Positions 3,857-22,191 of a DNA stretch of 25,877 nt are shown piece by piece; the stretch's first letter is position 1; every line of letters starts with the position of its first letter. Source of the stretch: a virus; the IMG/VR virus record IMGVR_UViG_3300032323_002167, positions 1-25,877 of that record; one strand, given 5' to 3'. The notes under the pieces are model-generated. The model saw only the letters and a program-made list of their open reading frames with translations, was not told where the DNA came from and searched no databases. Made by a program: the position numbers and the translations under genes.

Positions 3857-3864
3857 ATATTTAT
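3857..3864 (+). promoter_or_regulatory. Start-proximal ATATTTAT motif (candidate late promoter) before lysozyme
   Basis: ATATTTAT lies 6 nt before the ATG at 3871. The same core is placed 4-6 nt before the ATG of nine other genes in this window. Confidence 0.55.
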
Positions 3865-3870
3865 CATAAT

Positions 3871-5049
3871 ATGAGAAACATAAATAAGAAAAAATTAACT
3901 GAAACTATTAAAGCTTCTGAAGCTCACACGGAGTTAGGTTCATTTGAAACATTAGAACAAGGAAAAAGAGGGATTGCTTTAATTCAGATTAATACGGTTG
4001 ATGATATGATAAAAAGATATATTATTAATTCAATTAACGAAAATGATTTTGGTTACGTTGTAGTTCAAAAAAACCCAAAAAAACCAATAATTGTTTATAG
4101 AAAAGGGTATAGACAGAATGCGGAAGAATTGGCTAAAATAGCTGATAAATATAATGGTTTATTATCAGCGAAAGCAACCTACGAAGATAGTAAAAGAATT
4201 GGTGAGTTATTAGAATACGATCCGGAAGATATTCAAAATTATCTTAAAAAAAATTATAATGGTAAAACTTTAAAAGAACACGAAACCCCGTCTTTCTTGT
4301 TGAAAGAAGAAATAATTCTAATAAGGGAAGGGAATGTTCAAGATTACATAAATAATGTGTTATCAAAGATTAAAAACTTACCTTACGAAACAAAAAAGAA
4401 ATATCTAACAATAGCGATTTCAACCCTTTTGGGTTATACATCTTACCCTATCATTCAATCATTAATTGATAACTCATCTGATAAAGACGCTAAAGAAATT
4501 ACCCATAAATTAATGAAGGAAAAAGATGATTTTTCAGTATTTAAGGATGGAACAAAACTTCGTTTATCTAAGAGAGGGTTTCAACATATCATAGATGAAG
4601 AAAAACCAAAACTAATCGCTTATGCCTTAGGTGATGGTAAAATAACAATTGGTTATGGACACGCCGAACCAATTGGTAAAACAAAACTTAAAGTTGGACA
4701 AAAAATAACCAAAGAACAAGCAAAAAAACATCTTAAAGAAGATCTTAAAACCGCAGCAGATGGTGTAAGAAGAATGTTTAGTGATTGGAAACAACAAGGT
4801 AAAAACTACAAAATAACTCAAGATATGTTTGATGCATTAGTTTCAATGGCTTTCAATATGGGTGTTTCAGGTTTAAGACAATCAGAAATGGTTAAATACC
4901 TTAAAAACGGTAATTATAAAACAGCAGGACAACTTATTAAACAAACTAATATTAACCCAGACACATTTCCAGGACTAGAAAAGAGAAGGTATAGAGAATC
5001 CGATATGTTTTTATCATATTTATCAAAACCAGTTGACATAAACGTTTAA
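3871..5049 (+). CDS. Two-domain protein with C-terminal GH24 (T4-type) lysozyme
   Basis: A 392-aa protein with a phage lysozyme domain at about 225-385. It hydrolyses the MurNAc-GlcNAc bonds of peptidoglycan. The active-site region reads IIDEEKPKLIAYALGDGKI then TIGYGHAE, giving catalytic Glu243 and Thr259 by comparison with T4 lysozyme Glu11 and Thr26. The position of T4 Asp20 is not acidic (Leu253 when aligned on the TIGYGH end); Asp255 lies two residues later and may take its place. The C-terminal half has DALVSMAFNMG and PGLEKRRYRESDMF, both typical of the family. The N-terminal 200 residues are unassigned and include KKLTETIKASEAH near the start. The domain may tether the enzyme to the virion or delay lysis. 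T4 lysozyme is only 164 aa. A [A/C]TATTTAT motif precedes the gene. Two KWC proteins follow on the same strand. Confidence 0.88.
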   Translation: MRNINKKKLTETIKASEAHTELGSFETLEQGKRGIALIQINTVDDMIKRYIINSINENDFGYVVVQKNPKKPIIVYRKGYRQNAEELAKIADKYNGLLSAKATYEDSKRIGELLEYDPEDIQNYLKKNYNGKTLKEHETPSFLLKEEIILIREGNVQDYINNVLSKIKNLPYETKKKYLTIAISTLLGYTSYPIIQSLIDNSSDKDAKEITHKLMKEKDDFSVFKDGTKLRLSKRGFQHIIDEEKPKLIAYALGDGKITIGYGHAEPIGKTKLKVGQKITKEQAKKHLKEDLKTAADGVRRMFSDWKQQGKNYKITQDMFDALVSMAFNMGVSGLRQSEMVKYLKNGNYKTAGQLIKQTNINPDTFPGLEKRRYRESDMFLSYLSKPVDINV

Positions 5050-5055
5050 AACATA

Positions 5056-5063
5056 ATATTTAT
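5056..5063 (+). promoter_or_regulatory. Start-proximal ATATTTAT motif before KWC paralog 2
   Basis: ATATTTAT is 6 nt before the ATG at 5070, with the lysozyme stop only 7 nt upstream of the motif. Confidence 0.55.
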
Positions 5064-5069
5064 ACTAAT

Positions 5070-6899
5070 ATGAAATTATTACAATTATTATTTGAGGGAA
5101 AGGTTGATGACTTTAAAAAAATATTTAAAGACAAATACACAACCCCTGAACAAATGGACGCTATTATTAGAGTTTCATCTGAAATAGAACCTAAACACAA
5201 ATATTTAATTTGGTTAGGAAAATCATTAACCAAACCAGTATTTAATAATGAAATTGCCTTCGCTGAAGAATTATCTGGAACACAAGAACTCCTAATGAAG
5301 TTTGATAAAATTAGTTCTAATTTACCCATTAAAGACATTTCACAATATAAAAGCTTATCTGAGTTAGCAGAAGCAATTAAAACCTATGAAAATAGACAAA
5401 GAAGAACAATTAAAAAGGTTGATGGTGCTGATATAATTTACGATAGTGATGATTATACAATTATCCATCCAAAAGAATATAACGCTTCTTGTTTTTATGG
5501 TAAAGGTTCTAAATGGTGTACAGCTTCTGAAAAAAGCGACGAGCAATGGAAAAATCATAATAGAGAAGGTAAATTATTTTATTTTCTTTCAAAAAAATTA
5601 CCTACATCTGATAACTATTATAAAGTCGCTTTAGATCAAAAATTTAAAGGTACTAAATCTTTTTATGATGCAAATGACACCCCATTTACTAAAGGATGGA
5701 TTATGGATACAGAGGAGTTTAAAGAAATGATTGGTGTTATTAATCTATATATGAAAGATAACTTTTCAAATCAAATTGAAATATTCTCAAATGAAGAAAA
5801 AGCACAGGTTGAAATGGAAAGGATTAGAAGAATTGAAGCTCAGGAAAGAATTAATAGGAAAAAAGCCGAGGCTAATAGTAGAAGAGAGAATAATGAATGG
5901 GATCCTGAAGAAATTACTCACGGTGATGTTGGATCACATGCTTGGGCTTTATTTACATTTCTTTTATCTACAGAGAATTTAAATGAAAAACAACCTGAAG
6001 ATGAACAAAGAATTGAGTTTATTGATTCCGAATTAGAAAGATTAAGTGAAATACAAAGTCAATATGAAGTGGAAGGAAGGGATTTAACTGATATAGACGC
6101 TGAGATTTCGGCATATGAAGAAGAAAAACAAGGATTGGAAAATAGAATTGATGTGTATGATATGATACCGGAAGGTAACAATTATCAGTTAACAATATTT
6201 AGTATTACTCATCCTGATTTTGATGGTTATGAATGGACTGTTGGTGATGACGATCAAATTGATTATGCTGCGTATGAGAGTGAAAAAGATTTAATAAATG
6301 ATGTGGGTATTAATTCGTTCCCTAAAGATTTTATTGAAAATTTTATTGACGCTGAGGCTGTTGCCGATGAAGCTAGAGAAAATTATAACTATTGGGTTTA
6401 TGATAGTCCAGAATCATATTTGGATGAAAAAGAAGATAAATTATTAAGTAAATCACAAGAAAAAGAAATTGCCGAATACCAAGAAAAGATTGATAAATAT
6501 AAATCTTTCTATGAAAAAGCAACCGCACGTCAAGAAGAATATGATCCTGATAGCACACAATGGAAAGCAATTGAGAAAGGTTTAGATAAACTAACCGATT
6601 TAATATCAGATTTAGAATATGATATAGAAAACATTAAAGATGAACCGGATGGTGATTGGGATGAGGATAAAATTGAAGAAAGGATTGATGAATTAGTTGA
6701 TGATGTTAAATACAGACCTTTGAATTGGTTAAATGAAATGGGTGTTGAAAACTTAGATGACTATGTTGATAAAGATGAATTAATTAAATCAATTATTAAT
6801 GAAAATGGATATTATTCAACATTAAACAGTTATAATGGAGATGGTGACACAATAGAATGGGATGGTGAAACATATCATATTATGAATACAGATCAATAA
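5070..6899 (+). CDS. KWC-motif family protein, paralog 2 (609 aa, long acidic C-terminal extension)
   Basis: Function unknown. Residues 1-230 hold the family module: an N-terminal MKLLQLLFEGKVDDFKK segment, then YDSDDYTIIHPKEYNAS, the signature YGKGSKWCT (143-151; W149, C150), and LFYFLSKK followed by KVALDQ. The remaining 380 residues are strongly acidic and mostly helical, with heptad-like stretches around 255-285 (EEKAQVEMERIRRIEAQER), 310-370 and 455-540 that look like coiled coil, and a C-terminal strand-rich end (DTIEWDGETYHIMNTDQ). It is twice the size of its paralogs. It follows the lysozyme by 20 nt and has its own [A/C]TATTTAT motif. The LLFEG near the start would fit an LxE-type prohead protease site, but this is weak evidence. 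It may be a virion or injected protein; this is inference. Confidence 0.85.
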   Translation: MKLLQLLFEGKVDDFKKIFKDKYTTPEQMDAIIRVSSEIEPKHKYLIWLGKSLTKPVFNNEIAFAEELSGTQELLMKFDKISSNLPIKDISQYKSLSELAEAIKTYENRQRRTIKKVDGADIIYDSDDYTIIHPKEYNASCFYGKGSKWCTASEKSDEQWKNHNREGKLFYFLSKKLPTSDNYYKVALDQKFKGTKSFYDANDTPFTKGWIMDTEEFKEMIGVINLYMKDNFSNQIEIFSNEEKAQVEMERIRRIEAQERINRKKAEANSRRENNEWDPEEITHGDVGSHAWALFTFLLSTENLNEKQPEDEQRIEFIDSELERLSEIQSQYEVEGRDLTDIDAEISAYEEEKQGLENRIDVYDMIPEGNNYQLTIFSITHPDFDGYEWTVGDDDQIDYAAYESEKDLINDVGINSFPKDFIENFIDAEAVADEARENYNYWVYDSPESYLDEKEDKLLSKSQEKEIAEYQEKIDKYKSFYEKATARQEEYDPDSTQWKAIEKGLDKLTDLISDLEYDIENIKDEPDGDWDEDKIEERIDELVDDVKYRPLNWLNEMGVENLDDYVDKDELIKSIINENGYYSTLNSYNGDGDTIEWDGETYHIMNTDQ

Positions 6900-6914
6900 A
6901 TTAATAAAAAATAT

Positions 6915-6922
6915 TATATTTG
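6915..6922 (+). promoter_or_regulatory. Host-type -7 box upstream of KWC paralog 3
   Basis: TATATTTG matches the Bacteroidota -7 consensus, but no TTTG is found 17-21 nt upstream, and the ATG is 31 nt downstream. A second signal (6942-6949) lies between it and the start. Confidence 0.35.
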
Positions 6923-6941
6923 TAAAAATAAAAATAACTCA

Positions 6942-6949
6942 ATATTTAT
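6942..6949 (+). promoter_or_regulatory. Start-proximal ATATTTAT motif before KWC paralog 3
   Basis: ATATTTAT is 4 nt before the ATG at 6954 (spacer aggt), the commonest spacing among the ten copies in this window. Confidence 0.55.
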
Positions 6950-6953
6950 AGGT

Positions 6954-7937
6954 ATGACAAAAAATGAAGCAAAAAGAAATTATTTAGATAGGGGAATATT
7001 AAAAAACGATGCTTTTGAAAGGTTCTTAAATGAGGATCCAACATCTCAAAAGAAATATGTGTTTTATATGATTAAAGAATATTTAAGACAATCTGACGAT
7101 GCAGGTAATAAAGTATCTGACATATCAGTAAATGATTTAGATATGGGTATTTTATCACCAATCTTTTCATATGTAACAGAATATAATGCTTTACTTGGTA
7201 GAGTTCCACAAGATAAAAAAGATATATATAAATTATCTTTTGATAGTTTAGTTGATATTGTTGATGAATTAAACGCATCTGAGGGTGAAAGTGATAGGAC
7301 TTCTTTAAGAAAAAGAGCTCGTGAAAACTCTCTCAACTATAATGAAATGGGTATTGTAGATGTACCAGGAGTATCGGTTATTACCCCAAATAATCACGAC
7401 GCCATATGTTATTATGGTCAAGGAACTAGGTGGTGTGTTTCTATGAATACCCCTACCCATTTTATGAGTTATTATTATAATCAAAATTATACTTTTTTCA
7501 TTATAAGCATAACAAGCGATGCGGTTAAAAACAAAATTAAAGAACACTACGAAAACAAATGGGAAAAAATGGGGTTAGGAAAACCCACTTGGGATAGAAA
7601 GAAAATGAAATGGGTATTAGTTAAAAATGGTAAAGATATTGCTGATATAGCAGCCAATAATGAAAATGATGCCGCTGAATTATTTAAACAAAGATTAAAC
7701 TTATCATCTTTGAAAGGTTATACTATTGAAAATTATGGTTATAGAAACTTATATAAAGTAGCTTTTTTAGTTCCACCATTAAAAGGTAGTGATGGTGAAA
7801 TAGTTAGGGATGAAGATAATCAACCTTTACCTGATATGGAAAGAGCTCAGATTTATTCATCTGATGATATTTCATTTAATACTGGTTGGAAAGAATACTT
7901 TAAAGTAATTGGTTTAGAAGACTTTATTGAAAGCTAA
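6954..7937 (+). CDS. KWC-motif family protein, paralog 3 (327 aa)
   Basis: Function unknown. A helical, charged N-terminal 130 residues is followed by VSVITPNNHDAIC and the signature YGQGTRWCV (154-162; W160, C161). The downstream strand (YTFFIISI) is followed by an insertion of about 70 residues rich in lysine and tryptophan (NKWEKMGLGKPTWDRKKMKW and following) before the KVAFLVPP strand that closes the core in all paralogs. It ends with FNTGWKEYFKVIGLEDFIES. Arg replaces Lys in the signature. The gene has an [A/C]TATTTAT motif and is followed within 5 nt by a tag-bearing small gene, so 6954-8853 is probably one transcript. Confidence 0.85.
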   Translation: MTKNEAKRNYLDRGILKNDAFERFLNEDPTSQKKYVFYMIKEYLRQSDDAGNKVSDISVNDLDMGILSPIFSYVTEYNALLGRVPQDKKDIYKLSFDSLVDIVDELNASEGESDRTSLRKRARENSLNYNEMGIVDVPGVSVITPNNHDAICYYGQGTRWCVSMNTPTHFMSYYYNQNYTFFIISITSDAVKNKIKEHYENKWEKMGLGKPTWDRKKMKWVLVKNGKDIADIAANNENDAAELFKQRLNLSSLKGYTIENYGYRNLYKVAFLVPPLKGSDGEIVRDEDNQPLPDMERAQIYSSDDISFNTGWKEYFKVIGLEDFIES

Positions 7938-7941
7938 AAAT

Positions 7942-8373: not shown

Positions 8374-8853
8374 ATGAAAATAGTTATTACTGAAGAACAA
8401 AAAAAGAAGTTGTTCACTCCAAAAAATATAGATGAAAGGAAAGAACAACTTAAAAAAGACTTGTCTGAAAAAACCAAAAATCTTCTTTCACGTCTTAACA
8501 TAACTGAAATTATGGTTCACGCTCGTATTGATGATTACGATGAAATAATAACCCCTATGGATCATTTAGATGATGCATATAGTAAACTTATTATTGACGG
8601 TAAAAACTATAATGGATTTCCAAAAATGAGTGAGGAAGATGAGAATATGGTGATTAATTGGGAAGACACCTTAACAATATTCTTAAACTCAATAATACCT
8701 CAACCATCGGATGAAAGTATTTATAAAGCCGAACCAAATGTTGTTGGTAGAATGTTTAGGGTTGATATTACCCCATCAAAAATAAATATTATTTTTTCTT
8801 ACTCAATTGTAGAATATAAGAATAAAGAAGGTAAAGAAACTATTGACTTATAA
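8374..8853 (+). CDS. Tag-bearing small protein (159 aa)
   Basis: Function unknown. It begins directly with the tag MKIVITEEQKKKLF then TPKNIDERK, encoded by the second copy of the 56-bp repeat. After residue 25 the sequence is unrelated to the preceding protein: helical (EQLKKDLSEKTKNLLSRL), then strands, with VDITPSKINIIFSYSIVEYK near the end. The gene starts 3 nt after the previous stop and its last 14 nt overlap the end of the convergent gene at 8840. There is no terminator between them. Confidence 0.75.
   Translation: MKIVITEEQKKKLFTPKNIDERKEQLKKDLSEKTKNLLSRLNITEIMVHARIDDYDEIITPMDHLDDAYSKLIIDGKNYNGFPKMSEEDENMVINWEDTLTIFLNSIIPQPSDESIYKAEPNVVGRMFRVDITPSKINIIFSYSIVEYKNKEGKETIDL
8383..8438 (+). 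repeat. 56-bp direct repeat, copy 2
   Basis: Partner of 7993-8048 with 55 of 56 bases identical. It forms codons 4-22 of the 159-aa tag-bearing gene. Confidence 0.9.
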
Positions 8854-10625: not shown

Positions 10626-11726
10626 TTAATAGTAAAATGCTGATTCTTTATATTCTTCAATTATTTCCGTAATAGTCCGTTCTCCTTCAAAATTATCAAT
10701 AAATGAATATAATCCATCATATAGAAAAATGAATTCATTGTCAGTCATACCATACTTTTCTTGGAAATATTTCATTACTCTTTTTTTCATTTCAATCGTT
10801 GATAATACCTCACTCTTATTTGATGCGGTACTAACTCCACTATATTTATAGTTTTGTTCTTGTTGTTCAAACGGTTGTTTTTCATTACCTAATCTTTCAA
10901 TAATAGCCACAGATAACTCAAACGCTGTTTCAATACCTTCAATTAATACACATTCATTAGATGAATGATATTGATAATAAGCCGCTGGTAGGTTAATACA
11001 TTGAAAATTAAATTTCTTCTTTAATTGACTAACATCGGTATATGGATGACGAGCAAATGTTCTTACACCATACTTATATAGTAAATCACCAATCTTACCA
11101 TCAAAATATTCTTCACCTGTTTCCATATCAACTACAATACCAGGTTTAGCCCATTTTTCGTCAAATAACAAATAACCTGAGCAATACCAAGATATCGTAT
11201 CATTCTCAGGTGAATCGTGTTGAATTGCATAAGCAACATTCTCAAAAAAGTTAGGGTCAGCCTTACTTGAACCAATACAACCGATTTCTTCAGATATAAA
11301 AAAAGCACATTTCATAACGTCAAACTTATCCATTATTTCAAGAGCTAAGAAAATACCGGCCTTATCATCACCACCACAACCAGTTCTATTATTATATGTA
11401 TACTCCTTACCTTTAATATAACCACGAAGAACTTGCTTACCATTACATACTGATGAACGATCATACGCACTCATTTGATACGTTTCTTCAACTATGTCAA
11501 TACCATTACGTTGAATAGTATGGACAGTATCCATATGAGCAACCATACAAGGATAACTACTACTTAAACCTTTTGTTAAGTAAATATTACCAATGTCATC
11601 AATATAAAATGGAATATTACGAACCGTAGCCCATTCACTAATATACTCACGAACCTTTTCTTCCTTTCCATAAAATGATGGAATTGAGAGAATTTCTTTT
11701 AATCTTTCTAATTTTATGTTATCCAT
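10626..11726 (-). CDS. M20 family zinc metallopeptidase (PepT-like)
   Basis: The 366-aa protein shows the M20 dizinc site in order: VAHMDTVH (62-69; H64, D66), GCGGDDKAGIFLALE (116-130; D120), FFISEEIGCIGS (142-153; base E146, ligand E147), QHDSP (169-173; D171) and YHSSNE (253-258; H254). This is a complete set, so it should be an active peptidase or amidohydrolase on small peptides in the cytoplasm. The overall length is slightly short for PepT (about 410 aa), and the last 80 residues (from about 285) are a helical extension without similarity that I recognise. A strong host-type promoter with the -7 box 4 nt before the ATG lies upstream, and a nuclease gene follows with a 1-nt gap. A peptidase of this type is unusual in a phage. 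Confidence 0.9.
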   Translation of the reverse strand: MDNIKLERLKEILSIPSFYGKEEKVREYISEWATVRNIPFYIDDIGNIYLTKGLSSSYPCMVAHMDTVHTIQRNGIDIVEETYQMSAYDRSSVCNGKQVLRGYIKGKEYTYNNRTGCGGDDKAGIFLALEIMDKFDVMKCAFFISEEIGCIGSSKADPNFFENVAYAIQHDSPENDTISWYCSGYLLFDEKWAKPGIVVDMETGEEYFDGKIGDLLYKYGVRTFARHPYTDVSQLKKKFNFQCINLPAAYYQYHSSNECVLIEGIETAFELSVAIIERLGNEKQPFEQQEQNYKYSGVSTASNKSEVLSTIEMKKRVMKYFQEKYGMTDNEFIFLYDGLYSFIDNFEGERTITEIIEEYKESAFYY

Positions 11727-11730: not shown

Positions 11731-11761
11731 CAAATATAAAACTTTTTTTTAATTAACCAAA
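11731..11761 (-). promoter_or_regulatory. Bacteroidota-type promoter for the M20 peptidase gene
   Basis: TTTG (11758-11761), 19 nt, TATATTTG (11731-11738) on the minus strand, then 4 nt to the ATG at 11726. The layout is identical to that of smpB and predicts a leaderless mRNA. The -33 box lies inside the 3' end of the upstream gene. Confidence 0.78.
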
Positions 11762-12007
11762 ATATTTTTTGTATAATTCTCTAACTAAAATACTTTTCCT
11801 CATAATTGATTGATACTCATAGGTGTTTAAATATTTATATTCTACATATGAATGTTCTTTAAACGTAAAGTTTTCATTATCTTCCATTATTCCACTATAA
11901 TCTGAATAATGAACAATAAATCTTTCATCGTCAATTTTTTCGTACAAACAATATTGATTACCCGAACAAATAAAATATTTTTTCTTTAAATCTTTTAATT
12001 TTCTCAT
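11753..12007 (-). CDS. Small hypothetical protein (84 aa)
   Basis: Function not recognised. The chosen ATG at 12007 (MRKLKDLKKKYFICSG) lies 4 nt after a -7 box; a longer reading from 12049 would run back through that box and into the terminator hairpin, so it is rejected. The protein is basic at the start and then aromatic and acidic (CLYEKIDDERFIVHYSDYSG), and looks like a small beta-rich domain followed by a helix (IMRKSILVRELYKKYF). It is separated from the head genes by a terminator. Confidence 0.6.
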   Translation of the reverse strand: MRKLKDLKKKYFICSGNQYCLYEKIDDERFIVHYSDYSGIMEDNENFTFKEHSYVEYKYLNTYEYQSIMRKSILVRELYKKYFG

Positions 12008-12011
12008 ATTG

Positions 12012-12019
12012 CAAATATA
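12012..12019 (-). promoter_or_regulatory. Host-type -7 box for the 84-aa gene
   Basis: TATATTTG on the minus strand, 4 nt before the ATG at 12007. No TTTG occurs at the -33 position; that region is the U-tract side of the neighbouring terminator. Confidence 0.5.
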
Positions 12020-12040
12020 AATAAAAAAATATAAATAAAA

Positions 12041-12070
12041 AACCCACAACTAAAAAAATTAGCGTGGGTT
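12041..12070 (-). terminator. Rho-independent terminator after the packaging/head block
   Basis: Perfect 7-bp stem AACCCAC/GTGGGTT (12064-12070 with 12041-12047) and a 16-nt loop. In the minus-strand transcript the stem is followed by TTTTTATTTAT, so it acts for the genes transcribed from the right. Confidence 0.8.
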
Positions 12071-12104: not shown

Positions 12105-12848
12105 TTATATTGTCTCTAAATCTGATTTTAGTTTAATTAACTTAATAATACTATCTTTTTTATCGGTTGATGAGTAAGATTCTAATTTTAATTTAACTTT
12201 TGAAAGTTTTTCTTTTAATTCTGTATCACCAATATTTATTTTGTTATTTACTAATTCTAAGTTTTCTTTAATAATACTCTCTTCAATGGTTTTTAATTTC
12301 TCATCATCATTATTTAATACTGATTTTACTAAATCTTTTTCCCATTCTGTTAAGTTTTCATATTTTTTGTTAAACTTCTTAGCTATTAAATTAGTATAAA
12401 CTTTGATTGGTAGTGTTCCTTCAACTACATTATCTGATACAGATTTATGTGTTAATAAATGTGATACCAAATATTTTTTAGCACTTACCCTATTTTCTAT
12501 TAAATTAGATTTTGTATCCTGTAATAATGTATCAATGTTTTCTAATAAAGTTTCTTTAACATATGTTTTATCTGAATTATATTTTAATATAAAGTCATGT
12601 ACAACTGAAAAATCAACATCTAATGATTTAAGATAATCTAAATTTTCATTCAAATAAGATGTTGCATCTGAAATATCATCAAATTTCTTATTTTCAATAT
12701 TAGAATATACGATGTAATATTCTTTAATTGTTTTATTGTTTTTTAATATATTATAAAACTCCTTGAAGATTGTTTTGAACTTATTTTTATCAGAATAAGA
12801 TTCAAGTAATATATTATTAATTTCTTGTTTTATTTTACCAAATGTCAT
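12105..12848 (-). CDS. Putative head/prohead core-type protein (247 aa), function uncertain
   Basis: A 247-aa, Lys/Asp/Asn-rich, almost wholly helical protein with no cysteine. It lies directly downstream of the portal gene, the place where T4-like phages encode small prohead core proteins and the protease. The N-terminal NNILLESYSD contains an LxE-like site. The rest has long charged helices (TLLENIDTLLQDTKSNLIEN; EKLSKVKLKLESYSS). It lacks a serine-protease signature, so it is not an obvious gp21 homolog. A scaffold or core role is inferred from position and composition only. It has its own [A/C]TATTTAT motif and is followed by the terminator at 12041-12070. Confidence 0.7.
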   Translation of the reverse strand: MTFGKIKQEINNILLESYSDKNKFKTIFKEFYNILKNNKTIKEYYIVYSNIENKKFDDISDATSYLNENLDYLKSLDVDFSVVHDFILKYNSDKTYVKETLLENIDTLLQDTKSNLIENRVSAKKYLVSHLLTHKSVSDNVVEGTLPIKVYTNLIAKKFNKKYENLTEWEKDLVKSVLNNDDEKLKTIEESIIKENLELVNNKINIGDTELKEKLSKVKLKLESYSSTDKKDSIIKLIKLKSDLETI

Positions 12849-12852
12849 AACA

Positions 12853-12860
12853 ATAAATAT
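12853..12860 (-). promoter_or_regulatory. Start-proximal ATATTTAT motif before the 247-aa gene
   Basis: ATATTTAT on the minus strand, 4 nt before the ATG at 12848. Confidence 0.55.
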
Positions 12861-12872: not shown

Positions 12873-14696
12873 TTATATAATGGTTTTATCAATTTTTTCT
12901 ATCATTTCTTTTATTTCCCTATTATACGTATCCGTTTTACTTACTAATTTCTCAGTTATTAAAGGTTTATGTTTGCCAAGTATGAATGATTCTTGCGGAG
13001 CACCTTCAGGTCCACCAATAGGAGTTACACCACCAGCTTCTGGTGTAGTAGGTATTTCAGTTTCAAAACCACCAGCTTCAGCCCCACCAGCAAAACCACC
13101 AGCTTCAGCCCCACCAGCAAAACCACCAGCTTCAGCCCCACCAGCAACTTCAGCCGGAACAGGACCACCTTCATTAGGTTTAACTCCGTATATCTTATCA
13201 ACCTTATCAAACACACCTGTTTTTGGTATAACTGATGGTGTGTTAGCTAATTCAGCAGCTGCAGCTTTTTCTATCCTTTGTTGTTGTAAATCTAACGCAA
13301 TTTCTTCGTCTGACATACCTAATATTTCTTTTTTAGCTCTTACCATAGATATAGCTGAAAAACCATTTCCAGCATCAGCCATTGCTTTAGAATAGACATC
13401 CAACTTTTGTGACCATAATTCAATTTTCAATAATTCAGCTTGAGTTGAAGGATTGGTTAAGGCTAATGTAAAATTATCCAATTCTTCTTCATATCCTAAC
13501 ATAAATAAATGAATAATGGCGATCTTATTCAATTCTTGAATCATTGCCTTTTGTATACGATTAATAGTTCTTGAGAACCTAATATCGAGTAAAGAAAGAT
13601 TTTTACCATCACCCACAGCCTCACCAAAACCTAAAAATGGTGCAGGAACTCTAATAGCCGCAAATAATTTCTTTTGTAAGTATTCAATGTCATCAATTGG
13701 TAATGGTGCAGCTCCCGGTAAAGTATCAATAGGGCTAGCAGCATTTTCAGTTCTAACAGGAACAAACCAATCTTGATCAATACCTGCCTGATTGTATCTT
13801 AAATCAATCTGACCTGTTTTACCATCAACAATGGGTGTTCTTTTAAACTTATTAGCTATCTTTTGGATATATGCTTCAATGTCATTATCTTCCATATTAC
13901 CAACAAATACTTTAAATATTCTTCTTTCAGGTGCTCTTACAACTCTATAAATTAACATAGCGTCTTCCGACATTACTAATTGTCTATATATTCTTCTAGC
14001 CTTTTCTAAAATTGATGTCCCATATGGAAGTTTTCTATCATCACCCAATAATCTAAAATGAGCAATCTGAAACGGTTCGAATTGTAAATCTTTTGTTTTA
14101 TATTGAAATCTAATCTTCTTTTTCTTAGCAATTAAATCAGTATCCTCAAACCTCTCAATTTCAATTGTAGGTAATTGAGTACAACCAACAACCCCTTCAC
14201 CATGTTCCAAATGTAAATAAACAAAGTTATCACCATATTTAATTGTTGATCTTGTCCAAGATTGTAAGTTTGTTTCAATATCCAATACTTTATTAAAAAG
14301 GTTTTGAAGGATTGATCTCACCCTTTCCGATTCTGAAAATATTGTTAATACTTTACCTTGTTCTGATGGCACTGTCGCCTCTTCAGACATAATATCAAGA
14401 GCTGCGGCAATCTCAGGAAAAAACTCCATCGATTCAAAGTCATAATTCGCAGCCATTCTTGTCGGTTCATTGTGGATTGATCGAGCATACATATCATTCT
14501 CCACCTTACCCCATAAATCATTTATGTATTTTTGTTGTTGAAGTTCGTTTTTTGTTTGTTTAAACTCTTCAGGGTTTGTTGTCACCAATAAAGGATCAAC
14601 AGGTTTTTGAGGTCTATTTATTCTTCTTTTATTTTCATTATTAGGTCCCAATAAGATACCTAATCTCTGAAATATTGTATAATTTTGTTCTGCCAT
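12873..14696 (-). CDS. Portal protein (T4 gp20-like)
   Basis: The 607-aa protein sits directly after the large terminase and fits the gp20-type portal of myoviruses (T4 gp20 is 524 aa). It would form the dodecameric ring at the head vertex that acts as DNA channel and packaging-motor dock. Segments that fit are IAAALDIMSEEAT (95-107), TRSTIKYGDNFVYL, PYGTSILEKARRIYRQLVM, EDAMLIYRVVRAPERRIF, and DIEYLQKKLFAAIRVPAPFLGF before the long stem helix. The C-terminal 100 residues are unusual: a Gly/Ala/Glu-rich low-complexity run with three perfect copies of GGAEAGGFA (27-bp tandem repeat), then LITEKLVSKTDTYN and a terminal helix. It has an [A/C]TATTTAT motif before the ATG. Confidence 0.93.
   Translation of the reverse strand: MAEQNYTIFQRLGILLGPNNENKRRINRPQKPVDPLLVTTNPEEFKQTKNELQQQKYINDLWGKVENDMYARSIHNEPTRMAANYDFESMEFFPEIAAALDIMSEEATVPSEQGKVLTIFSESERVRSILQNLFNKVLDIETNLQSWTRSTIKYGDNFVYLHLEHGEGVVGCTQLPTIEIERFEDTDLIAKKKKIRFQYKTKDLQFEPFQIAHFRLLGDDRKLPYGTSILEKARRIYRQLVMSEDAMLIYRVVRAPERRIFKVFVGNMEDNDIEAYIQKIANKFKRTPIVDGKTGQIDLRYNQAGIDQDWFVPVRTENAASPIDTLPGAAPLPIDDIEYLQKKLFAAIRVPAPFLGFGEAVGDGKNLSLLDIRFSRTINRIQKAMIQELNKIAIIHLFMLGYEEELDNFTLALTNPSTQAELLKIELWSQKLDVYSKAMADAGNGFSAISMVRAKKEILGMSDEEIALDLQQQRIEKAAAAELANTPSVIPKTGVFDKVDKIYGVKPNEGGPVPAEVAGGAEAGGFAGGAEAGGFAGGAEAGGFETEIPTTPEAGGVTPIGGPEGAPQESFILGKHKPLITEKLVSKTDTYNREIKEMIEKIDKTII
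13064..13144. repeat. 27-bp tandem repeat, three perfect copies, in the portal C-terminus
   Basis: Three identical 27-bp units at 13064-13090, 13091-13117 and 13118-13144. Each encodes nine residues of the portal (GGAEAGGFA in phase). Perfect identity suggests recent expansion and possible copy-number variation among relatives. Confidence 0.95.
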
Positions 14697-14700: not shown

Positions 14701-14708
14701 ATAAATAT
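14701..14708 (-). promoter_or_regulatory. Start-proximal ATATTTAT motif before the portal gene
   Basis: ATATTTAT on the minus strand, 4 nt before the ATG at 14696. Confidence 0.58.
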
Positions 14709-14717: not shown

Positions 14718-16406
14718 TCATTTAATCCCGAATAACCACCTAAATTCATTTTGAACTTGTCTTTGATTTGTTTGACCACCTAAAGGATTCATTTTATCTT
14801 GCATATTATATGTTGGAACACCTGTAATAGTAGTTTCAACAGTCCACGAATTTAATAATGATTTTATTTGCGATTCATTTTTACTAAGATCTTTAAATCT
14901 AATCTCACATAAGTATAATGCTAAGGCTAAGGAAAATAAACAGTCATCATTACATCCTTTCATATGATCAGGTCTACCAGATACGTTTACAATAAATGTT
15001 CTCATTTCTGATAGAACCCTATGACTTCTTACCTTAAACCCTTGTCTTATATTTCTCTCAAAGGCATCTAACACATTCATTCTAGTTATAGATGAACCAA
15101 TAACCAAACCAGCAGGTAATTCATCCTTATTAATGTATCCATACATATCCTTACCTTTATAATCATAAAAGAAATTCTTATAACCGAATTCTTTTAGTTT
15201 ATTTACACAAATTAAACCTAACCCACCTGTTAAATCTGTTATAAGCATAGGATTACCATACATTTCTAAATATTTCATTATAAACTCAGCTGTAATATCC
15301 GGAGCCATTTTACCCCTCCATTCAAATACTTGCTCCCAAGTTTCAAAATCAACGATAGTTAATACACTCCAGTCATCAGATTGACCTAATGATATATCTA
15401 AACCCGCAGCATACCTATGACCTTTTTCTGGTTCTTTAAATATCCAAACTGATTTATCGAAACCTTCAATCCTAATCGGATCCATTACACATTCTCTTTC
15501 TTGTTTATCAATATCTTCACCAGCAACAAATGTATTACCAGAACCAACAAAATTACCATCAATCTCCTGACTTACTTTTCTTGGTGAATCCATATCCGCC
15601 TTCATCCCCTCATACCAAGCAGAAGTTGGTTTCCAACCATTTTTAATTAAATCTTTCCACTCATCTTGATTCCAATTTTCAATTTCCTCATCTTCTTTTT
15701 TCCACATTAAATTAATGTTATATCTTGGATCTTGATACCATTTAATTTCATTAATAACGAATTTATTTTTACCAAGTTTAGCATTGTTATATGTTTTCCA
15801 ATATAACAAATCATTACCATTTGGTGTTGATATGAGAATTGCTCTACCACCTGTTGATAAAGCAGCCATTGATGCAGTCCAAAACTCTTCAACATCTATA
15901 TTATCGATGTGAGCAGCTTCGTCAATAATCATTAAAGTAGGTGTATAACCCCTTAAAGCATCCATTGATGTTGCAACGGCTTTAACTTCAGATTTGTTAT
16001 ACATTATCTTATGAAACTCTGTTGATTTAGCATACATTTCTTCTTTAGCTACATCAAACATCCAATCAGGGCATTGACTAATAAACTCATTAACCTTTTT
16101 TAACATTAAGGCTGCAGTATCTCTTTTATTTGCAACAATTAGAACCTTTTCAGGTGATTCTTCATCGGCAAATAATAATAACCAACAAACGTAAGCTGCA
16201 GTAATTGTAGATAAACCAGCTTGTCTATACTTGAGTGCTAAATTATATCTTTCATTCTTAAAATTGTGTAAAATATTTTGTTGTATGGGAAACAATTTAA
16301 ATGGAACATTACCCTTTTGTGTTTGGTCGTATGTTGTAAGATAATTCTCAATAAAATAAACGTAATCTATACTACACTTTAAATATTCAGTTGTAATATC
16401 ATTCAT
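14718..16406 (-). CDS. Terminase large subunit (gp17-like)
   Basis: The 562-aa protein is the ATP-driven DNA packaging motor and headful nuclease. ATPase part: Walker A variant RQAGLST (61-67), the same RQ.G.[ST] form as T4 gp17; Walker B TLMIIDEAAH (157-166; D162, E163); coupling motif ISTPNG (192-197). Nuclease part (RNase H fold): AGLDISLGQSDDW with D337, LITDLTGG with D391, and PDHMKGCNDDCLFSLALAL with acidic residues at 480 and 487-488. All three catalytic acidic sites are present. T4 gp17 is 610 aa, so size is normal. It lies between a 158-aa gene and the portal gene, as in T4-like phages. A CTATTTAT variant of the start-proximal motif is 5 nt before the ATG. Confidence 0.96.
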   Translation of the reverse strand: MNDITTEYLKCSIDYVYFIENYLTTYDQTQKGNVPFKLFPIQQNILHNFKNERYNLALKYRQAGLSTITAAYVCWLLLFADEESPEKVLIVANKRDTAALMLKKVNEFISQCPDWMFDVAKEEMYAKSTEFHKIMYNKSEVKAVATSMDALRGYTPTLMIIDEAAHIDNIDVEEFWTASMAALSTGGRAILISTPNGNDLLYWKTYNNAKLGKNKFVINEIKWYQDPRYNINLMWKKEDEEIENWNQDEWKDLIKNGWKPTSAWYEGMKADMDSPRKVSQEIDGNFVGSGNTFVAGEDIDKQERECVMDPIRIEGFDKSVWIFKEPEKGHRYAAGLDISLGQSDDWSVLTIVDFETWEQVFEWRGKMAPDITAEFIMKYLEMYGNPMLITDLTGGLGLICVNKLKEFGYKNFFYDYKGKDMYGYINKDELPAGLVIGSSITRMNVLDAFERNIRQGFKVRSHRVLSEMRTFIVNVSGRPDHMKGCNDDCLFSLALALYLCEIRFKDLSKNESQIKSLLNSWTVETTITGVPTYNMQDKMNPLGGQTNQRQVQNEFRWLFGIK

Positions 16407-16411: not shown

Positions 16412-16419
16412 ATAAATAG
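16412..16419 (-). promoter_or_regulatory. Start-proximal CTATTTAT motif before the terminase
   Basis: CTATTTAT on the minus strand with a 5-nt spacer to the ATG at 16406. The first base is C instead of A, as also at 21778-21785. Confidence 0.5.
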
Positions 16420-16896: not shown

Positions 16897-17569
16897 TGAA
16901 TTCTTTATAGATATTTAACACTTCAGCAACAATTGGGTGTCTATGGTTTTCTTTAAGAGTAATAACCTTAAATCCTTTAACTCTACCATCTAATCCAGAT
17001 AAGAAAGAAAGACCTGATTCTTTTTTATTTCTTAAATCCACTTGTGATGTATCACCACAAAGAACCATTTTACTTCTCATACCTAATCTACCAATAACCA
17101 ATTCCGTTTGAGTGTGAATTAAGTTTTGACATTCATCAACAATAATAAATGAATCTTGAAATGTATGACCTCTCATATAAGCTAACGGTATCATTTGAAT
17201 AACACCTTCTTTAATCATCTCATCTATTTTTTGTTTATTGTATAACTTATAAAAGTTATTATGTATTGGTTGAATGTATGGTTGTAATTTATCATCAGCA
17301 CCACCAGGTAAGAATCCAATTTCTTCTTTTGATACTGCCGGTCTACAAATGATTATTTTTTCAATTTCCCTTTTATTAAACATATCTAAAGCAATTAAAC
17401 ACGATAAAATAGTTTTCCCTGAACCGGCAGCTCCTTTAAGTACCGTAATGTCATTCTCCATTATAAACCTTTTAGCGTTTTTTTGTTCATCATTAAGATC
17501 AATATTATATTTAATATCACCTTTAGGTTTCCTCTTTTGAGTATTTGACGTTTTACCTGTATATTCCAT
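16889..17569 (-). CDS. phoH: PhoH-like ATPase
   Basis: The 226-aa protein has the PhoH ATPase domain: Walker A GAAGSGKT (46-53), the CRPAVSKEEIGFLPG segment (75-89) and GD..QKLQPY-like ADDKLQPYIQP, Walker B FIIVDECQN (141-149), and the closing GD.SQVDL (172-179) and ENHRHP. PhoH proteins are P-loop NTPases related to helicase superfamily 1 and common in marine phages; their role in infection is still unclear. I place the start at 17569 (MEYTGK) rather than 17575 because the ATATTTAT motif (17574-17581) would otherwise overlap the start codon, and the downstream ATG gives the standard 4-nt spacer. PhoH begins the packaging block transcription unit. Confidence 0.93.
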   Translation of the reverse strand: MEYTGKTSNTQKRKPKGDIKYNIDLNDEQKNAKRFIMENDITVLKGAAGSGKTILSCLIALDMFNKREIEKIIICRPAVSKEEIGFLPGGADDKLQPYIQPIHNNFYKLYNKQKIDEMIKEGVIQMIPLAYMRGHTFQDSFIIVDECQNLIHTQTELVIGRLGMRSKMVLCGDTSQVDLRNKKESGLSFLSGLDGRVKGFKVITLKENHRHPIVAEVLNIYKEFND

Positions 17570-17573
17570 ATTC

Positions 17574-17581
17574 ATAAATAT
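17574..17581 (-). promoter_or_regulatory. Start-proximal ATATTTAT motif before phoH
   Basis: ATATTTAT on the minus strand, 4 nt before the ATG at 17569. It overlaps the alternative ATG at 17575, which favours the downstream start. Confidence 0.55.
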
Positions 17582-17693: not shown

Positions 17694-19319
17694 TTATTCT
17701 TTTGTTAAACCTTTAACTTCACTTAACATTTTCTTTAAAGTAATATTAACATCTTCCGTCATTACACTTTTAGCTGATGGTTTAGTGTTATAGTTATAAT
17801 TCATTAACTTCATAATTTTAGATGATTCTTCATTTATCATCTTTTTATTTTTATCAGCCAATACAATTAATTCACCTTCCTCAAATCTAACTTTAGCAGT
17901 TCTATTATCATCAGCAATTTCAAATATATGACCTTCAACTTTATAATCTTCAGGTAATACTACCTTATCCAAGTTTTCAGCATTTTCAACTCTTAAAGAA
18001 CCTAAATTAACCGAAGCAAATCCTGTTGAAATATTCATACTTGCCGACGGTCTTTCAACTTTAGGTTGTGGGGTTGAATTGATTTCTTTCATTGCATTAT
18101 TATCCAATATAGTTACCCAACCACCTTCTGATTCTTTCATATCTTTCTTCTTGAAGATTTTAGATTTTTTCATCATTGGTTTACCTTTTTTAGCGTCTTT
18201 AGCTGCTTTCTTCATAGGTTCTTTTTTATCACCATCTTTATCTAAATCTAAGAAATCAGGTTTAGCTTTCTTAGCTTCTTTCATTTTGATAGCTTCTTCA
18301 ATAATTCTATCCACAATAGATGATATTGATTCTTCCACATTCTTATTTTTACCGAATGCTTTATAATTATTTACTAAATCTTTCATAGGTTTTGGGTCTT
18401 TATAAAATGTGTGATACACAGATTGTTTATTTTGTAATTCTTTTCTTTTATTCGCAATTTTCATTGAAACGCTCGCATCACCATCTAAGTCTTTTTTAAC
18501 TCTTTCTTTAAACTTATCCGATGGATCTCTATCGTAATCTAAATCTAGATTATTCATACCTGATTTAGCCAATTCTTCAATGTAAGCCTCATCATTTTCA
18601 ACACCATATTTTTTAGTGTTATCATCACCAAGAGCTGTTTTTGCAGTTCCACCATTATCAACCAATTGTGGTTTTAATTTAATATCGTTATATTTAGAAA
18701 CCTTTTTCATACTTTCTTCATATGCAGCTTTATTTTCTTTAGCATTATCTTTTGATATTTTGTTATACATACCAACACCAGGTGCCGCTCCACCAATACC
18801 AGGTAAACTTCTTCTACCCATTATATCAGCTTCTTCAAGTGTTTTCTTTCCACCACAACCACATCCACCTTCTTTTAAGGTTTTCTTATTTTCAATGTCA
18901 AACTCTTTTTTAAATTTAGATTTAGCATCTTTTTCAGTATAATCCATATATTTACGCTTAAATAAATCACCATTATTAAGACGTTTACTTAAAACCAAAT
19001 AACCTGTTTTTGTTTTTTCCACATCAATAGTTTCGTTAATGGTTTTTCCACCACATCCACATCCACCTTCATTTGTGATAACAACATTAGCATTTTTATC
19101 TTTTATTTTAACAACATCCGCTATTTTACTACTTGGAACATAATATGTTTTACTATCCATATCTTTTGATAATGTTGTTTGAGTTTTCATATCAATCTCA
19201 TTTAACTCATCATCAAATAAATCTTCCATAGTAACCTTTCTCTTTGGCATCCTATATTTAGATTTTTTTTCTACAAATTTGTAGTTATCTACATTTTCAT
19301 ATTTTTCGTTTATTTTCAT
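17694..19319 (-). CDS. Probable virion-associated protein with GGCGCGGK motifs and a DxDxDG loop (541 aa)
   Basis: The function is not established. The 541-aa protein is lysine-rich and low in hydrophobic residues. Landmarks: two copies of GGCGCGGK (85-92 and 151-158), a glycine-rich GIGGAAPGVGMYNK segment (174-187), KAKPDFLDLDKDGDKKEPMKK (from 351), whose DLDKDGD resembles an EF-hand-type calcium loop and which I recall from virion or core proteins of T4-like marine phages, an extremely basic stretch (373-395), and a C-terminal beta segment with KVEGHIFEIADDNRTAKVRFEEG that reads like a small beta-barrel domain. It ends with INEESSKIMKLMNYN and a helix. It carries the [A/C]TATTTAT motif and is the last gene before a terminator. 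A prohead core, internal head or scaffold role is inferred. Confidence 0.8.
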   Translation of the reverse strand: MKINEKYENVDNYKFVEKKSKYRMPKRKVTMEDLFDDELNEIDMKTQTTLSKDMDSKTYYVPSSKIADVVKIKDKNANVVITNEGGCGCGGKTINETIDVEKTKTGYLVLSKRLNNGDLFKRKYMDYTEKDAKSKFKKEFDIENKKTLKEGGCGCGGKKTLEEADIMGRRSLPGIGGAAPGVGMYNKISKDNAKENKAAYEESMKKVSKYNDIKLKPQLVDNGGTAKTALGDDNTKKYGVENDEAYIEELAKSGMNNLDLDYDRDPSDKFKERVKKDLDGDASVSMKIANKRKELQNKQSVYHTFYKDPKPMKDLVNNYKAFGKNKNVEESISSIVDRIIEEAIKMKEAKKAKPDFLDLDKDGDKKEPMKKAAKDAKKGKPMMKKSKIFKKKDMKESEGGWVTILDNNAMKEINSTPQPKVERPSASMNISTGFASVNLGSLRVENAENLDKVVLPEDYKVEGHIFEIADDNRTAKVRFEEGELIVLADKNKKMINEESSKIMKLMNYNYNTKPSAKSVMTEDVNITLKKMLSEVKGLTKE

Positions 19320-19323
19320 AATA

Positions 19324-19331
19324 ATAAATAT
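19324..19331 (-). promoter_or_regulatory. Start-proximal ATATTTAT motif before the 541-aa gene
   Basis: ATATTTAT on the minus strand (preceded by TAAT), 4 nt before the ATG at 19319. Confidence 0.55.
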
Positions 19332-19332
19332 A

Positions 19333-20445: not shown

Positions 20446-21274
20446 CTAAACCTTTAAATCTACCTTTACATACTTGAACAGCAAAGCCATTACTATAAGC
20501 TGAGGGATACACCTTAAACTTAGCTTTTGCGGCTGCTTTACCTCTTGCACATAATGGAGTTCCGGTTTTCTTTTTACCTTCTTCTAGACTTTCATCCATC
20601 TTCATATATTCTTTAAGTTTAATAAACTCTTCTTTGGTTAAACCTGTTCTTATTTTTCTTCTTATTGGTTGATCCAATGCCGTTACATATGCCCCTGCCG
20701 ATGCTGTTCCAGTTTCTTCTTCCAATTCTTCAGGTTTAATTTCTTTAACCATTCTTTCAATTAAAGAAATTAATTCACTTTCTTTTAATGTAATTGTCTT
20801 TTTCATATTTTCATTTATTACTAATTCACTTTTTATATAATTACATACTTCGGATATTATATTTTCATTTTTATGATTAATGTCATAATCCGAATAACCC
20901 AATAATTGAGTATGTTGTATTTCAATTATACCTGACGCACCATATCCACCACCATATTGAACACTTCTTGGATTATTTCTATATAAACCAATGTCATATT
21001 TATAACCTAAATCAAATTTATCAAATGGTGTCCCTTTAAAGGCGCCATGAACAACAAGAATTAAACTATCATTGTTTAACATTTCCTTATACATTAACCT
21101 ATCACCCTTATAATCATAACTACTTTTTTCAGTAATTTCACCATCACCAATCTTTTCAAGTGAACGTCTCAAACCTTTAGTAGAAACTTTTTCTTCACCA
21201 CTATCTCTCCTCATCATTTTTCTAACCTGATTTTCAATCAAGTTATAATCAACACTTTCCTTTAATACTTTCAT
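20411..21274 (-). CDS. Probable virion-associated mosaic protein with C-terminal CARGKAAAK module (287 aa)
   Basis: Function unknown. The N-terminal 135 residues (MKVLKESVDYNLIENQ...) form one mixed alpha/beta domain that contains LILVVHGAFKGTPFDKFDLG and IIEIQHTQLLGYSDYD. Next comes an internal tag MKKTITLKESELISLIERMV (from about 159) of the same type as the N-terminal tags of neighbouring genes, then EETGTASAGAYVTALDQPI and IRRKIRTGLTKEEF. The last 50 residues hold the module LCARGKAAAKAKFKVYPSAY followed by VQVCKGRFKGLDGQKKC, which I recall from several myovirus virion proteins. The presence of an internal Met-led tag suggests that this is a fusion of two once-separate genes, or that there is an internal start near 20800. 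It overlaps the next upstream gene by 4 nt (ATGA-like) and the downstream gene by 35 nt. Confidence 0.78.
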   Translation of the reverse strand: MKVLKESVDYNLIENQVRKMMRRDSGEEKVSTKGLRRSLEKIGDGEITEKSSYDYKGDRLMYKEMLNNDSLILVVHGAFKGTPFDKFDLGYKYDIGLYRNNPRSVQYGGGYGASGIIEIQHTQLLGYSDYDINHKNENIISEVCNYIKSELVINENMKKTITLKESELISLIERMVKEIKPEELEEETGTASAGAYVTALDQPIRRKIRTGLTKEEFIKLKEYMKMDESLEEGKKKTGTPLCARGKAAAKAKFKVYPSAYSNGFAVQVCKGRFKGLDGQKKCSGAYC

Positions 21275-21528
21275 TTTCTTTTATTCATTTTACTTGTCAT
21301 TTGTTTATATTGGAAATCTGAATGATTATAAGGATTATAAACAATCATTTCTTTCTGATGTCTTTTCTTTTCACCCACATCTTCCATTTTAACCTCATAA
21401 GCCATTTTACCTCTTATCAAACCTAATATGGGACTTTTATAAGCACCAACACCGGCTGTTGTTTCGGCTTCACTGATTAAATTATCTTTAATCTTATTGT
21501 ATTGATTTTCGGTTATTATGATTTTCAT
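21271..21528 (-). CDS. Tag-bearing small protein (85 aa)
   Basis: Function unknown. The ATG at 21528 is chosen over 21567: it shares ATGA with the stop of the upstream gene (21525) and gives the tag-type start MKIIITENQYNKIKDNLISE. The tag is followed by AETTAGVGAYKSPILGLIRG, a variant of the E.T...G.Y.[ST]P motif of its neighbours. The rest is basic (GEKKRHQKEMIVYNPYNHSD ... MNKRK). It may be a small virion or internal head protein, by context only. Confidence 0.7.
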   Translation of the reverse strand: MKIIITENQYNKIKDNLISEAETTAGVGAYKSPILGLIRGKMAYEVKMEDVGEKKRHQKEMIVYNPYNHSDFQYKQMTSKMNKRK

Positions 21529-21773
21529 TTCCCTAAATTTGTCACCCAGAAGTTTCTTCTCATCCACAATGTTTTATACAATGAAACTAAAACATCTTTA
21601 GATATTTCAGTCATTATTTTTTCAGTGTCTTTACCCTTTAACTCTTTCTTTAATAAATCAAGAACAGTTTTTTCCAAATCCTTATTAATTAAATCTTTTA
21701 TTTGTGATTTAATCATTTTTTCAACTTGTTCTTTTTCCGTCTTATTTAATTCCTCAAATAATATGTTTTTCAT
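21525..21773 (-). CDS. Conserved helical phage protein (82 aa)
   Basis: Function unknown. The protein is almost entirely charged helix: MKNILFEELNKTEKEQVEKM, then IKSQIKDLINKDLEKTVLDL and ISKDVLVSLYKTLWMRRNFW. The ending LYKTLWMRRNFWVTNLGK is distinctive and I recall it as conserved in related large phages. The ILFEE at the start could be an LxE-type processing site. It carries the CTATTTAT variant motif 4 nt before the ATG and begins the translationally coupled run 21773-19333. Confidence 0.75.
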   Translation of the reverse strand: MKNILFEELNKTEKEQVEKMIKSQIKDLINKDLEKTVLDLLKKELKGKDTEKIMTEISKDVLVSLYKTLWMRRNFWVTNLGK

Positions 21774-21777
21774 ATAT

Positions 21778-21785
21778 ATAAATAG
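21778..21785 (-). promoter_or_regulatory. Start-proximal CTATTTAT motif before the 82-aa gene
   Basis: CTATTTAT on the minus strand, 4 nt before the ATG at 21773. Confidence 0.52.
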
Positions 21786-22178
21786 TTATAATTTATATGT
21801 TTTTTCACCTCTACCTAAAAGAGAATATTCATAATCAAAAGAAACGGTTAAATTATTTTCATTCGTTAAAGATATTTCACCCCACACATGATAAATACCT
21901 TCAATATTTTCAATAATTTGTAGTAACATTTTATAAATAGGTTTTTCAAAATCCCATAATGATTCATAAGGTGATGAGCCATTACTAATATCATGTACAT
22001 CCCAACTCCATTGATCAGGTGTTGTACTAATATCAAATCGGATTGATGTTTGTTTATCTTTTAAATATTGAATTACAGGATCCATACCAATTTCACTAAA
22101 GAATTGTTTTTCCCTACTGTCAATATTTCTAGGAACAAATAATTTTTTCTTTTGATCCTCATTTATTATAATTCTCAT
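21786..22178 (-). CDS. Tag-bearing small protein (130 aa)
   Basis: Function unknown. It begins with the tag MRIIINEDQKKKLFVPRNID then SREKQ, the same module as the proteins at 7942 and 8374 but with diverged codons, so this copy is old. The rest is a beta-rich domain: WSWDVHDISNGSSPYESLWD, MLLQIIENIEGIYHVWGEIS, NLTVSFDYEYSLLGRGEK. The end pattern (VSFDYEYS) resembles the FSYSIVEYK end of the 159-aa plus-strand protein, hinting that the bodies of tag carriers may also be distantly related. An ATATTTAT motif precedes the ATG. Confidence 0.75.
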   Translation of the reverse strand: MRIIINEDQKKKLFVPRNIDSREKQFFSEIGMDPVIQYLKDKQTSIRFDISTTPDQWSWDVHDISNGSSPYESLWDFEKPIYKMLLQIIENIEGIYHVWGEISLTNENNLTVSFDYEYSLLGRGEKTYKL

Positions 22179-22183
22179 AATAT

Positions 22184-22191
22184 ATAAATAT
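22184..22191 (-). promoter_or_regulatory. Start-proximal ATATTTAT motif before the 130-aa gene
   Basis: ATATTTAT on the minus strand, 5 nt before the ATG at 22178. Confidence 0.55.

Follow-up and report, generated by a model that had tools for sequence, protein, structure and literature searches.

The locus and the signals before its start codons

The stretch of DNA analysed here (the window) is the 25,877 nucleotides of IMG/VR record IMGVR_UViG_3300032323_002167, a 25.9-kb phage fragment with T4-type packaging genes. Its T4-type markers are a terminase large subunit (TerL; phrog_2), a portal protein (phrog_213), a PhoH-like protein (phrog_170) and an endolysin (phrog_7). The closest annotated matches of the TerL are those of Microcystis phage Mel-JY01 and Flavobacterium phage immuto (~29-30% identity), and 18 IMG/VR loci encode a TerL that is 88-100% identical to it. 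Among the TerL relatives are a 98-kb contig (G001) and two 33-kb contigs (G002 and G003); together with the window, these three form the group used for counting (the window's group, 236 genes). The window comes from a T4-like virus that infects Bacteroidota.

A sequence-only reading of the window had proposed that ten genes are preceded by [A/C]TATTTAT and that this motif is a phage late promoter. All ten sites were found, with spacers of exactly 4 nt at six of them, as had been claimed (sites at 6942, 12853, 14701, 17574, 19324 and 21778), 5 nt at 16412 and 22184, and 6 nt at 3857 and 5056. The sites, followed by the host-type boxes of the window, are:

3857-3864, plus strand: ATATTTAT, 6 nt before the ATG of the lysozyme-like gene 3871-5049 (endolysin, phrog_7)
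5056-5063, plus strand: ATATTTAT, 6 nt before the ATG of the 609-aa gene 5070-6899
6942-6949, plus strand: ATATTTAT, 4 nt before the ATG of the 327-aa gene 6954-7937
12853-12860, minus strand: ATATTTAT, 4 nt before the ATG of the 247-aa gene 12105-12848
14701-14708, minus strand: ATATTTAT, 4 nt before the ATG of the portal gene 12873-14696 (phrog_213)
16412-16419, minus strand: CTATTTAT, 5 nt before the ATG of the terminase large subunit gene 14718-16406 (phrog_2)
17574-17581, minus strand: ATATTTAT, phoH-like gene (phrog_170), probable start at the second ATG, 17567-17569, 4 nt after the motif
19324-19331, minus strand: ATATTTAT, 4 nt before the ATG of the 541-aa gene 17694-19319
21778-21785, minus strand: CTATTTAT, 4 nt before the ATG of the 82-aa gene 21525-21773
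22184-22191, minus strand: ATATTTAT, 5 nt before the ATG of the 130-aa gene 21786-22178
597-604, minus strand: host-type -7 box TATATTTG, 4 nt before the ATG of gene 161-592, with TTTG upstream
845-852, minus strand: host-type -7 box TATCTTTG, 4 nt before the ATG of gene 628-840
11731-11738, minus strand: host-type -7 box TATATTTG, 4 nt before the ATG of gene 10626-11726
12012-12019, minus strand: host-type -7 box TATATTTG, 4 nt upstream of an internal ATG (12005-12007) of the mechanically called ORF 11753-12049

Three or four window genes thus carry a host TATATTTG/TATCTTTG box exactly 4 nt before the ATG; the G001 counterpart of ORF 11753-12049 begins at such an internal ATG. At the phoH site, the motif lies where it had been placed, and the first ATG (17573-17575) falls within the motif. 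Two relatives (L021 and L026) have ATA where this in-motif ATG stands, and the gene therefore probably starts at the next ATG, 17567-17569. The restriction of the first base to A or C holds for the ten window sites but not for relatives, where G also occurs. An eleventh match with a spacer of 4-6 nt (8782-8789, minus strand) falls within a gene, in antisense orientation, and seems to be due to chance. Since ~10 of the 34 window genes carry the motif, many late genes would be read from promoters farther upstream. The small proteins encoded by 8374-8853 and 21786-22178 have near-identical N-termini (MKIVITEEQKKKLFTPKNID and MRIIINEDQKKKLFVPRNID), and only the gene at 21786-22178 has the late motif directly upstream.

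Position bias and specificity of TATTTAT

The pattern TATTTATN{4,6}ATG occurs 11 times in the window against 1.74 expected, and none of 100 dinucleotide shuffles reached 11 (maximum 7). Bare TATTTAT is only mildly over-represented (23 versus 15.3), so the signal lies in the start-proximal position, as the sequence-only reading had held. Across the window's group, 46 of the 236 genes have TATTTAT at a spacer of 4-6 nt (shuffle mean 1.18, maximum 5 of 300), and within 45 nt upstream of genes this motif ranks first among 7-mers by enrichment (72 versus 21 expected). Equal frequency at other offsets was not found: the spacer to the ATG peaks sharply at 4-6 nt, which accounts for 46 of 77 occurrences. 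Among 35 tested permutations of the same letters, the next best was TATATTT with 21 (median 1), a 7-mer that is contained in the host box and shares sequence with ATATTTAT.

At start-proximal spacers, TATTTAT was absent from two unrelated Bacteroidota control phages, Flavobacterium phage FCL-2 (0/67 genes) and Cellulophaga phage phi38:1 (0/70), jointly 0/137. Host controls were taken from a phylum sample of Bacteroidota chromosomes (GC <0.44, 440 genes), because a scan of genome contigs with the RpoD-like sigma P0001 (see below) returned mostly other phyla. The motif was present at 1 of these 440 genes; the chromosomes are less AT-rich than the phage and are not those of its actual host, and this figure therefore only bounds the background. 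The shuffles, the permuted 7-mers and the AT-rich control phages rule out chance arising from AT richness. ATAAATA, the element in T4 orientation, was also considered as the signal and rejected, as it shows no peak at a spacer of 4-6 nt (2 occurrences versus 46 for TATTTAT).

Relation to the host box and to gene order

For tests of overlap and exclusivity, a late-motif gene was defined as one with TATTTAT at a spacer of 4-7 nt. In the window's group, 55 genes have only the late motif, 43 only the host box TAnnTTTG and none has both (p = 9e-6). The earlier statement that genes with a host-type promoter lack the motif is thus correct in that the two never coincide, but the layout is shared: host boxes also stand 4 nt before the ATG, exactly so in 23 of 54 cases. 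None of the 55 late-motif genes overlaps an upstream gene, compared with 96 of 146 genes with neither signal, a contrast that is expected in part because overlapping genes have less free sequence. The distribution suggests that TATTTAT heads transcription units only.

TTTG is present 15-25 nt upstream of 32 of 43 host boxes versus 7 of 64 TATTTAT sites, and in immuto GTTG is found upstream of 21 of 24 early boxes versus 0 of 28 TATTTAT sites. TATTTAT sites therefore have no conserved -35/-33 element and do not show the Bacteroidota primary-sigma combination of TAnnTTTG with TTTG near -33. Nor do they show the fixed spacing and the use inside operons of a translation signal, as their spacing is variable and bimodal. 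Together, the position at the head of transcription units, the exclusion of the host box, the lack of a -33 element and the enrichment in the immuto structural region (below) bear out the proposal of a phage late promoter, which we hold to be very probable, and we regard promoter-like behaviour as shown by comparative sequence evidence.

The genes preceded by the motif

In immuto, whose structural regions we set from the annotation, TATTTAT is upstream of 19 of 60 structural-region genes versus 14 of 152 genes elsewhere (p = 1e-4), and the early box has the opposite distribution (0/60 versus 25/152, p = 2e-4). The motif precedes TerL, portal, endolysin and baseplate genes. G001 motif genes include the endolysin and a baseplate wedge gene, and among the G001 genes with a host box are those for a peptidase, a DNA polymerase exonuclease-like protein and the RpoD-like sigma, the last by reading of its upstream sequence. 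From this gene content, we infer late timing of the motif genes. A G001 transposase gene (93683-94870, phrog_506) has a late-type motif at spacer 7.

Spacing in relatives and predicted start sites

The distance from motif to ATG differs among relatives: 4-6 nt in the window, mostly 11-24 nt in immuto and ~15-45 nt at Mel-JY01 late genes. Immuto has the motif ahead of its TerL, portal, sheath, tape measure and further virion genes, and in Mel-JY01 TATTTAT is again the top 7-mer (23 versus 8.2 expected), with several late-gene leaders containing a GGAG-like Shine-Dalgarno sequence. At the portal gene, the spacer is 4-5 nt in most of the window's group, 10-34 nt in motif-bearing jumbo relatives, 17 nt in immuto and 34 nt in Mel-JY01; some jumbo relatives have no motif before TerL or portal. 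At the 247-aa gene, the spacer is 4 nt in the window and two near-identical loci and 17-20 nt in eight relatives that are 82-91% identical (L012, L013, L016, L017, L019, L021, L023 and L026). Compared with close relatives, ~15 nt are missing from the region upstream of this gene (window 12846-12860) and the motif is kept. Such a loss would turn a leadered layout into a leaderless one and may be viewed as a natural experiment. The phoH site agrees with this: in the two relatives that have ATA within the motif, the ATG that is left stands 4 nt after it.

In 80 loci picked only by their gp55-like gene (L409-L488), 85 genes have a spacer of 4-6 nt, 2 of 7-10 nt and 86 of 11-18 nt, as if very short leaders were avoided. 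Bimodal spacing was also seen in the sets of loci related to immuto26A_153 and to P0001.

In flavobacteria, the host box spans positions -12 to -5 relative to the transcription start (PMC9723704, PMC6847099), and where it is 4 nt before the ATG, initiation is therefore expected on the A of the ATG. Leadered TATTTAT sites in relatives have A at the fifth to sixth base after the motif (0.69-0.94). In the window's group, the A of the ATG is itself the fifth to seventh base after the motif; spacers of 4 and 5 nt match the enriched A, and a spacer of 6 nt would leave a leader of one or two bases. Judged from this spacing, late mRNAs of most motif genes are predicted to start at or within ~2 bases of the ATG. 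Placement of the element 4-6 nt before the ATG would thus make them leaderless or nearly so, a consequence that the sequence-only reading had not drawn. In F. psychrophilum, leaderless mRNAs are ~5.5% of those mapped (PMC9723704).

Candidate sigma factors

The immuto26A_153 gene sits just before a late block. Its product has a weak single-protein PHROG match to T4 gp55 (E = 0.5), and its family aligns with eight T4/cyanophage gp55 proteins at a hhalign probability of 82% over 101 columns. The best viral fold matches of a structure model of a relative (pLDDT 74, pTM 0.47) include proteins named as phage RNA polymerase sigma factors; in a PDB fold search with this model, several sigma factors were among the top matches and none was significant (none below E = 0.2). 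Immuto, Mel-JY01 and ten of the larger relatives encode the gp55-like protein. In these ten, a family related to that of immuto26A_153 (99.7% profile match) occurs together with an RpoD-like sigma that resembles the one of G001, and nine of the ten have a TerL match to that of the window (38-51% identical over matched stretches). In the 80 loci picked only by the gp55-like gene, the motif was upstream of a gene in 68. In-frame TAA codons in four gp55-like matches were taken as alignment overrun, because the stop lies outside the gp55-like core in the translations.

Many motif-bearing phages encode an RpoD-like sigma besides the gp55-like sigma. Immuto-type phages have the gp55-like protein only, with no P0001 homologue, which makes the gp55-like protein the factor common to motif-bearing phages. 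No gp55-like gene was found in the window's group, which is represented by fragments such as the window and G001; in G001, phmmer, HMM and hhalign searches gave a best hhalign probability of 12.5%. When the 80 loci were checked for a contig that would connect a gp55-like gene with the window's group, only short stretches of 70-75% DNA similarity were seen. Phage LR756508 (L209, L210 and L407) encodes a gp55-like protein and is not enriched for TATTTAT (2 in 121 genes); its TATTTAA count (11 versus 3.5 expected) weakly suggests this 7-mer as a possible shifted element.

G001 encodes at 49109-49891 (L029:11109-11891, minus strand) the RpoD-like sigma P0001, with Pfam regions 1.2, 2 and 4. Sigmas of this type also occur in relatives L128-L206 and in many larger Bacteroidota-type phages. 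The P0001 gene itself has a host-type TATATTTG upstream.

The sequence-only reading had thought a phage-modified or phage-encoded sigma conceivable, and the occurrence of the motif in phages encoding a gp55-like sigma agrees with it. Co-occurrence and remote homology in relatives suggest this protein as the factor that reads TATTTAT.

Interpretation and alternatives

We consider it probable that TATTTAT is a phage T4-type late promoter read by a gp55-like sigma, giving leaderless or near-leaderless late mRNAs. TATTTAT (usually [A/C]TATTTAT, often followed by A) would be a -10-like element with no -33 element. Host RNA polymerase with the phage gp55-like sigma would recognise it and initiate 5-6 nt downstream, so that in the window's group, with the element 4-6 nt before the ATG, late mRNAs would have no leader or one of ~0-2 nt. 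Early genes would use the host box TAnnTTTG, often in the same place, and both classes would tend to avoid a 5′ leader.

Weighing against the gp55-like reading are the failure to find a gp55-like gene in the window and G001 (both fragments), the lack of enrichment in LR756508, the remoteness of the gp55 similarity, the RpoD-like sigma of G001, the modest share of window genes with the motif and its absence before TerL or portal in some jumbo relatives. The element could instead be read by the RpoD-like sigma of the P0001 family (G001 49109-49891). No other sigma was found in G001, the closest long relative; P0001 has regions 1.2, 2 and 4, and its homologue-bearing loci are enriched for TATTTAT (242 versus 75 expected). 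This alternative we judge unlikely, as immuto-type phages and Mel-JY01 combine the motif and the gp55-like protein with no P0001 homologue, ten of the larger P0001 phages encode a gp55-like protein as well, and P0001 retains region 4, whereas nothing at -33 accompanies the motif. Reading by the host primary sigma, with TATTTAT as a degenerate -7 box and perhaps a phage activator, draws on the alignment of ATATTTAT with TATATTTG over ATATTT and on their equal place before the ATG. It is made very improbable by the replacement of the near-invariant G, by the scarcity of the -33 TTTG (7/64 versus 32/43), by the complete separation of the motif from host boxes and by its near-absence from Bacteroidota chromosomes.

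Least probable of all, in our estimate, is a translation-initiation signal for ribosomes that work independently of Shine-Dalgarno sequences. The location of the motif 4-6 nt before the ATG would suit it, as would the fact that Bacteroidota mRNAs lack Shine-Dalgarno sequences (PMC6847099). The sequence-only reading had kept this option for the case that the promoter failed, but spacing is not fixed among orthologues, the distance to the ATG ranging from 4 to ~45 nt among relatives. The motif is also missing from genes that overlap an upstream gene and is found at a single one of the 440 chromosomal genes, and Flavobacterium prefers A at -3 and an A-rich upstream region, not a T-rich block (PMC6847099). 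A translation signal was accordingly rejected on its variable spacing, near-absence in host chromosomes and operon position.

With the gp55-like late promoter as the preferred reading, a broader proposal can be made, tentatively and at somewhat less than even confidence. In a large clade of T4-like Bacteroidota phages, most of them uncultivated and many of them jumbo phages, the T4 late promoter may have been rebuilt into TATTTATA, the T4 element backwards, together with a diverged gp55-like sigma. Placement of the element would choose between a leaderless mRNA and a leader of ~8-12 nt, lengths between being avoided, and early and late genes of the window's group would be mostly leaderless, in a host phylum with few such mRNAs.

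TATTTAT offers a sequence handle on late gene expression in little-studied phages that we call very common because both gp55-like searches of IMG/VR gave at least 600 matches. As Flavobacterium phage immuto is in culture with its host, the prediction is directly testable. If true, it would show how a T4-type late system operates on a host RNA polymerase that has TAnnTTTG as its primary promoter, and would supply a collection of natural leaderless genes from a phylum with few (~5.5% in one species, PMC9723704). The motif also improves start-codon calls, as for phoH in the window.

Comparison with known systems

No published description of the TATTTAT element was found in the open-access papers searched. 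The T4 late promoter consists of a single TATA-like element followed by an AT-rich stretch, and its -35 region is not conserved; its sequence, TATAAATA, is recognised by gp55, acting together with gp33 and the gp45 clamp (PMC2988020). TATTTAT resembles it as a single A/T-rich element near -10, with no -35 element and with an AT-rich downstream segment, and likewise stands before genes for the head, packaging and lysis; a gp55-like protein is encoded by related phages, and the TerL and portal of the window are T4-type. The coding strand does not match TATAAATA: the consensus is [A/C]TATTTAT(A), and TATTTATA differs from TATAAATA by two changes when read forward. With its commonest following base, the motif (TATTTATA) is exactly the reverse complement of TATAAATA, as the sequence-only reading had observed, a relation that may be an AT-rich coincidence. 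Further differences are that TATTTAT adjoins the ATG, whereas the T4 element leaves room for a leader, and that the similarity of the gp55-like protein to gp55 is remote. The gp45-type clamp model PF02916 passed its cut-off in T4 only, with weak sub-threshold matches elsewhere, and a diverged clamp is possible. TATTTAT thus appears to work like a T4-type late promoter but is not a proven member of that class, since its sequence differs and no gp45-type clamp was detected.

Late promoters of KVP40, 44RR and S-PM2 are reported to be highly similar to those of T4, and that of Aeh1 differs at -13/-12 (PMC2988020). The system described here would share with them a clade-specific late element and a gp55 homologue, but TATTTAT deviates in the middle. 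T4-like group 2 jumbo phages are described as encoding minimal and RpoD-like sigmas together with gp33 in the consulted part of a jumbo-phage survey, which gives no promoter element for the Bacteroidota members (PMC7824862). Mel-JY01 (PP395634), deposited as a Microcystis phage, carries both Bacteroidota-type TAnnTTTG boxes and TATTTAT (record positions 63103, 64093 and 182020), and its host assignment may deserve a second look. The Bacteroidota primary-sigma promoter (TTTG / TAnnTTTG) occupies the equal place before the ATG in other genes of the phage, but TATTTAT differs from it in having neither the final G nor the -33 TTTG, and the two are mutually exclusive.
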